Assembly: GCA_016744335.1 (NCBI GenBank)
Contig: JADGEO010000005.1
Span: 39,036-103,035 of the forward strand
Direction of reading: 5' to 3'
DNA: 64,000 nt
Origin: Anaerolineales bacterium
GTDB lineage: Bacteria > Chloroflexota > Anaerolineae > Anaerolineales > Villigracilaceae
This document shows, piece by piece, positions 42,922-43,326 of the stretch. Position 1 is the stretch's first letter, and each line of letters starts with the position of its first letter. The position numbers and the translations under genes are program-made. Under the pieces are notes generated by a model that was not told the DNA's origin, did not search any database, and saw only the letters and a list, made by a program, of their open reading frames with translations.

Positions 42922-42937
42922 TGTTTCACGTGAAACA
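42922..42937. promoter_or_regulatory. parS: parS-like site 1
   Basis: Exact TGTTTCACGTGAAACA, identical to a canonical chromosomal parS form. Confidence 0.8.
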
Positions 42938-43231
42938 CAAACAAAAGTACTATTCGTGTTTTTTATCAAGAGCAAGATAAATCGTAAGCGTTCAGGGGTT
43001 TCAAAACAGAACACGGATTTTACAGATTAGACAGATTTTCGCGGATTTTAAAAACTTTTTTGTTTTTTATATGTGCAAAGATCACAAAAACATATAAACT
43101 TTCTGGAAAAATGCAGCAAAAGCATTAAAGATTCGCGTCATTCGCTCATTCGCGTATAGCGTAGCGGCATTTGCGTTGAAAGCTTTTAATATGGCTGAAC
43201 GCTTACGATAAATCTTGTATTACAACAAAAG

Positions 43232-43247
43232 TGTTTCACGTGAAACA
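43232..43247. promoter_or_regulatory. parS: parS-like site 2
   Basis: Exact TGTTTCACGTGAAACA. Confidence 0.8.
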
Positions 43248-43310
43248 CAAACAAAAGTGCTATTCGTGTTTTTTATCAAGAGCAAGATAAATCTTGCATT
43301 ACAATAACTG

Positions 43311-43326
43311 TGTTTCACGTGAAACA
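43311..43326. promoter_or_regulatory. parS: parS-like site 3
   Basis: Exact TGTTTCACGTGAAACA. Confidence 0.8.

Follow-up and report, generated by a model that had tools for sequence, protein, structure and literature searches.

A probable chromosomal parS cluster near a candidate replication origin in an Anaerolineales bacterium

Three palindromes between two sdpI genes

We analyzed a 64-kb window (bases 39036-103035 of contig C90) from the genome of an Anaerolineales (Chloroflexota) bacterium, which is assembled as 3.62 Mb in 134 contigs. A preliminary description of this window had reported three 16-bp palindromes, at 42922, 43232, and 43311, in the spacer between two SdpI-family genes, had equated them with a canonical parS sequence bound by ParB, and had noticed no further copy. 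We found that all three coordinates were exact and that domain assignment (PF13630) bore out the location between two SdpI-family genes (Table 1). The window holds no fourth copy of TGTTTCACGTGAAACA at up to three mismatches, where shuffling gives an expectation of 0.34. We then counted the palindrome genome-wide at up to two mismatches and found exactly three copies, all in the cluster, while the reversed control pattern gave one match. By arithmetic, about 8e-4 exact copies would be expected by chance in 3.62 Mb. The parS consensus TGTTNCACGTGAAACA likewise has three exact matches in the cluster and none elsewhere in the focal genome.

Table 1. Features of the sdpI locus and of the candidate origin region (window coordinates)
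Feature	Position	Strand	Remark
sdpI-A (DUF1648 + SdpI)	42262..42900	-	
Putative parS site 1 (TGTTTCACGTGAAACA)	42922..42937	.	22-37 bp 5' of the sdpI-A start codon
8-bp target-site duplication GATAAATC, left copy	42976..42983	.	
MITE-like element, 223 bp, with 12-bp terminal inverted repeats GTAAGCGTTCAG	42984..43206	.	Between parS sites 1 and 2
8-bp target-site duplication GATAAATC, right copy	43207..43214	.	
Putative parS site 2 (TGTTTCACGTGAAACA)	43232..43247	.	Exact match
Putative parS site 3 (TGTTTCACGTGAAACA)	43311..43326	.	At the middle of a perfect 24-bp palindrome (43307-43330)
sdpI-B (DUF1648 + SdpI)	43334..44017	-	
ArsR/SdpR-type regulator gene	44007..44309	-	Only plausible local operator-binding candidate
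Probable oriC	47019..47362	+	Eight DnaA boxes (at most one mismatch to TTATCCACA), of which those at 47293 and 47334 are exact
Conserved origin core	47028..47085	+	BUS-like: an AT-rich stretch followed by TAG repeats, GGGG, and a pair of inverted DnaA boxes; includes TAGTAGGGGGTGTGGA (47058-47073)
dnaN (DNA polymerase III beta subunit)	56834..57967	+	Origin-neighbour gene

The three copies are not independent, because a 62-nt direct repeat is common to sites 1 and 2, and a 43-nt repeat, at a spacing of 79 bp, to sites 2 and 3. The element between sites 1 and 2 has the features of a MITE: it is short and non-coding, has terminal inverted repeats and a target duplication, and occurs in many copies. 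We found about eight near-full copies in the genome, and seven of the eight examined have a perfect 8-bp target duplication. When we removed the 223-bp element in silico, the even 79-bp spacing of all three sites was restored. We concluded from the even spacing that the cluster arose when one site was triplicated in tandem, with a 79-bp period, and that the MITE split the array later.

Similar sites are widespread in the order. The exact 16-mer is present in 36 of the 119 genomes searched, and parS within two mismatches in 63 of 70, where most matches are at the 14-bp core GTTTCACGTGAAAC and are clustered. In each of 14 well-assembled genomes, the core-type sites number one to three and cluster at a single locus; the exceptions are scattered single-mismatch matches and a third site in G107 that lies 20 kb away. 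The sequences of the relatives are mostly MAGs, with open reading frames called mechanically. In the literature collection that we searched, no work dealt specifically with the parS or oriC of Anaerolineae.

A candidate origin and its distance from parS

The densest DnaA-box cluster on the 103-kb contig lies in a 520-bp intergenic stretch (46976-47495), which holds all eight boxes given in Table 1 within 400 bp. Like a B. subtilis-type oriC (DnaA boxes, GC spacer, and DnaA-trios), it combines an AT-rich stretch, TAG repeats, GGGG, and tandem inverted boxes, an arrangement that has been reported for the basal unwinding system (BUS) (PMC8287927), and a further group of boxes lies about 280 bp from it. 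In contrast to that type, it is not beside dnaA, with dnaN in the neighbourhood, and its DnaA-trios are partly degenerate (TAG TCG TCT TAG TAG, with two contiguous TAG), whereas the closed relative G016 has five clean trios; we took a BUS to comprise a box, a spacer, and at least three NAN trios. Using blastn, we found the origin core in seven of eight genus members. In G016 the core lies at 505276-505331, at the skew minimum, and is a weak blastn match (E 3e-4). We concluded that 47019-47362 is probably the replication origin, which the preliminary description had overlooked.

We ranked a DnaA-box triple at C90:37608-37657 second as an origin, with fewer boxes and no unwinding motif. It lies 1.4 kb left of the window and 48 kb from oriC, has the same box spacing as oriC (20/21 bp), and may be a site of DnaA titration or an origin relic.

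Skew (GC and TA) was sampled in 20-kb pieces, not genome-wide, and is weak in family f1. Closed G016 has its cumulative minimum at about 500 kb, with the origin motif at 505.3 kb and parS at 476 kb. In closed G107, the sign changes from the 280-300 kb piece to the 300-320 kb piece, the minimum falling at about 300 kb; parS is found at 296 kb, with one further site at 276 kb. Closed G069 has parS at 3.946 Mb and a skew sign change between 3.8 Mb and 0, and in closed G066 the skew places the origin only roughly. On its own, the focal 103-kb contig has too noisy a skew to locate the origin; the minimum falls near C90:95.5 kb, which is 9 kb past the oriC candidate.

In the focal genome, the oriC candidate is 3.7 kb and dnaN 13.5 kb from the parS cluster. 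We found the origin motif 3.7 to 40 kb from parS in all 10 genomes that have both on one contig, the focal genome included. By arithmetic, the distances are 3.7 (G000), 6 (G035), 9.5 (G047), 14 (G066), 14 (G041), 14 (G019), 18 (G027), 26 (G050), 29 (G016), and 40 kb (G069); these pairs leave out G025, which has motif and parS on different contigs, and genomes such as G054 that have a motif match but could not be paired. In 7 of the 17 parS loci that we read, a homologue of dnaN is found at most about 10 kb from parS. On contig C21 of G041, the origin core motif occurs twice (25818 and 86535), 61 kb apart and in opposite orientation. The focal oriC candidate, the skew of closed relatives, and the 10 same-contig pairs all place parS in the ori domain.

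ParB, ParA, and the parS core

The focal genome has one ParB match to TIGR00180, on contig C95. This parB is directly downstream of a ParA-type ATPase gene, and the two make up the one standard ParAB pair in the genome. The protein matches solved structures of ParB/Spo0J (E ~1e-48) and of Noc. It keeps GKSR (R173) and EGHAR (G201), whose equivalents we placed through the aligned motifs GKSR and GHAR; according to published work, these two parS-specificity residues are absolutely conserved among ParB orthologues (PMC7383237). We found ParB in all 82 high-quality genomes searched. Six genus relatives (G001, G002, G005, G006, G007, and G008) also have a second, long ParB-domain protein, in open frames of 650-755 aa on other contigs; unlike these, the focal genome has no such second protein.

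The focal assembly has parAB, dnaA, and parS on separate contigs. Among four closed relatives, ParB is 1.12 Mb from the origin in G016 (25% of genome length), 0.96 Mb in G066 (23%), 0.37 Mb in G069 (9%), and 1.34 Mb in G107 (45%), and parAB is outside the ori domain in three of the four. The G107 parB (C1:1636741-1637268) is at the skew maximum, near the terminus. By arithmetic, dnaA lies 1.84, 0.93, 0.62, and 0.09 Mb from the origin in G016, G066, G069, and G107, respectively. Closeness of parAB to the origin is usual for chromosomal parS but does not strictly define it.

The perfect palindrome was found in none of eight other members of the genus. Six of these relatives carry an asymmetric TGTTTCACATGAAACA-type core (CACATG) at the same place in the sdpI locus. 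In the ParB tree, the focal species is nested within the CACATG relatives, as sister to G002. In a comparison of the ParB genes L202-L208 and L067, the recognition helix of the focal ParB reads GKSRSTITNII, versus GKSRVA-TNT- in the genus relatives, which have CACATG sites, and among the genus members examined only the focal ParB has the changed helix. This single case suggests that the parS core and the ParB recognition helix co-evolved. We tentatively entertain a wider picture in which the Anaerolineales segregation system has been split, with the centromere staying by oriC and parAB (and dnaA) moving, once to the terminus, and in which the genus switched its parS to CACATG and the focal species returned to perfect palindromes with a changed ParB helix.

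Probable chromosomal parS and the alternatives

We concluded that the three palindromes are very probably the chromosomal parS cluster, or centromere, of this bacterium, because they are unique consensus sites that are conserved and close to the origin, and because the genome encodes a cognate ParB with parS-type residues. The preliminary description, which had proposed this identity, had named a motif scattered outside the origin domain, a missing parB, and a merely local regulator operator as findings that would count against it. We found instead that the only three copies in the genome form one origin-proximal cluster, that parB is present together with parA, and that the palindrome, which also occurs away from sdpI and inside coding sequence, is not bound to one promoter. 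Two observations do count against the parS reading: the location of parAB off the ori domain in most closed relatives is atypical, and the core is not invariant, since other genus members have no perfect palindrome. By analogy with known systems, the ParB encoded beside parA on contig C95 would load on the three sites, close into CTP-dependent clamps, and slide onto flanking DNA, and ParA and SMC would use the ParB complex to separate newly copied origins.

The neighbouring sdpI genes bear on how the sites are read. We found that sdpI adjoins the sites in 13 of the 17 parS loci, and the co-location of parS and sdpI is long-standing across a family, with one site directly 5' of sdpI in the genus. 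A true parS could therefore have a second role, with ParB spreading from it to modulate how the flanking sdpI operon is expressed. We regard this dual use as unlikely, as conserved gene order around the origin explains the co-location simply, and in B. subtilis the loss of Spo0J left the expression of parS-adjacent genes unchanged (PMC7022226).

It is very improbable that the palindrome instead serves the sdpI/arsR/CAAX-protease cluster as a local operator to which the ArsR-type regulator, or some other dimeric repressor, binds. The distance of site 1 from the sdpI-A start (22-37 bp), the ArsR-type gene within the same cluster, and the frequent presence of sdpI beside parS all fit an operator, as does the fact that the only two SdpI genes of the focal genome flank the sites; because there are just these two, sdpI paralogues are useless as an operator test. 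Yet sdpI was not found beside parS in 4 of the 17 loci (L059, L064, L065, and L066), and L060 has two parS sites within one coding sequence for an ABC-transporter ATPase, at codons 30 and 242. We rejected the sdpI operator because the palindrome is present in loci without sdpI and in the ABC ATPase gene; across the 17 loci, we found no tie to one gene's promoter. In addition, the 14-bp core is kept across relatives while the flanks differ, and the sites match the universal parS exactly in a genome whose ParB has the parS-specificity residues.

That the copies are duplicates of one another with a MITE inserted among them might suggest a chance tandem repeat or decaying, nonfunctional parS copies, with ParB using other sites, but this is extremely improbable, as all three copies are perfect, the genome has no other candidate site at up to two mismatches, and relatives with an SdpI of only ~47% identity retain both the locus and the core.

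Read as chromosomal parS, the cluster resembles the ParABS systems with parS TGTTNCACGTGAAACA of the B. subtilis, C. crescentus, and P. aeruginosa type in its site sequence and clustering, in lying close to the origin, and in its ParB, which has R173 and G201. It differs from them in having few sites at a single locus with a tandem 79-bp period, in the asymmetric CACATG core of sister species, and in that most closed relatives have parAB away from the ori domain, G107 having it at the terminus. A parS beside oriC is a textbook kind of element, and what is unusual in this lineage is that the genes serving it, parAB and dnaA, lie away from the origin.

These findings would place an origin and a centromere in a large, mostly uncultured order in which dnaA is no guide to oriC. 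In draft genomes, origins could be found simply by searching for two conserved motifs, parS and TAGTAGGGG. Having parAB apart from parS runs counter to a feature of ParABS that has been called conserved in a review, and the switch between CACATG and CACGTG may serve as a natural test of ParB-parS co-evolution.
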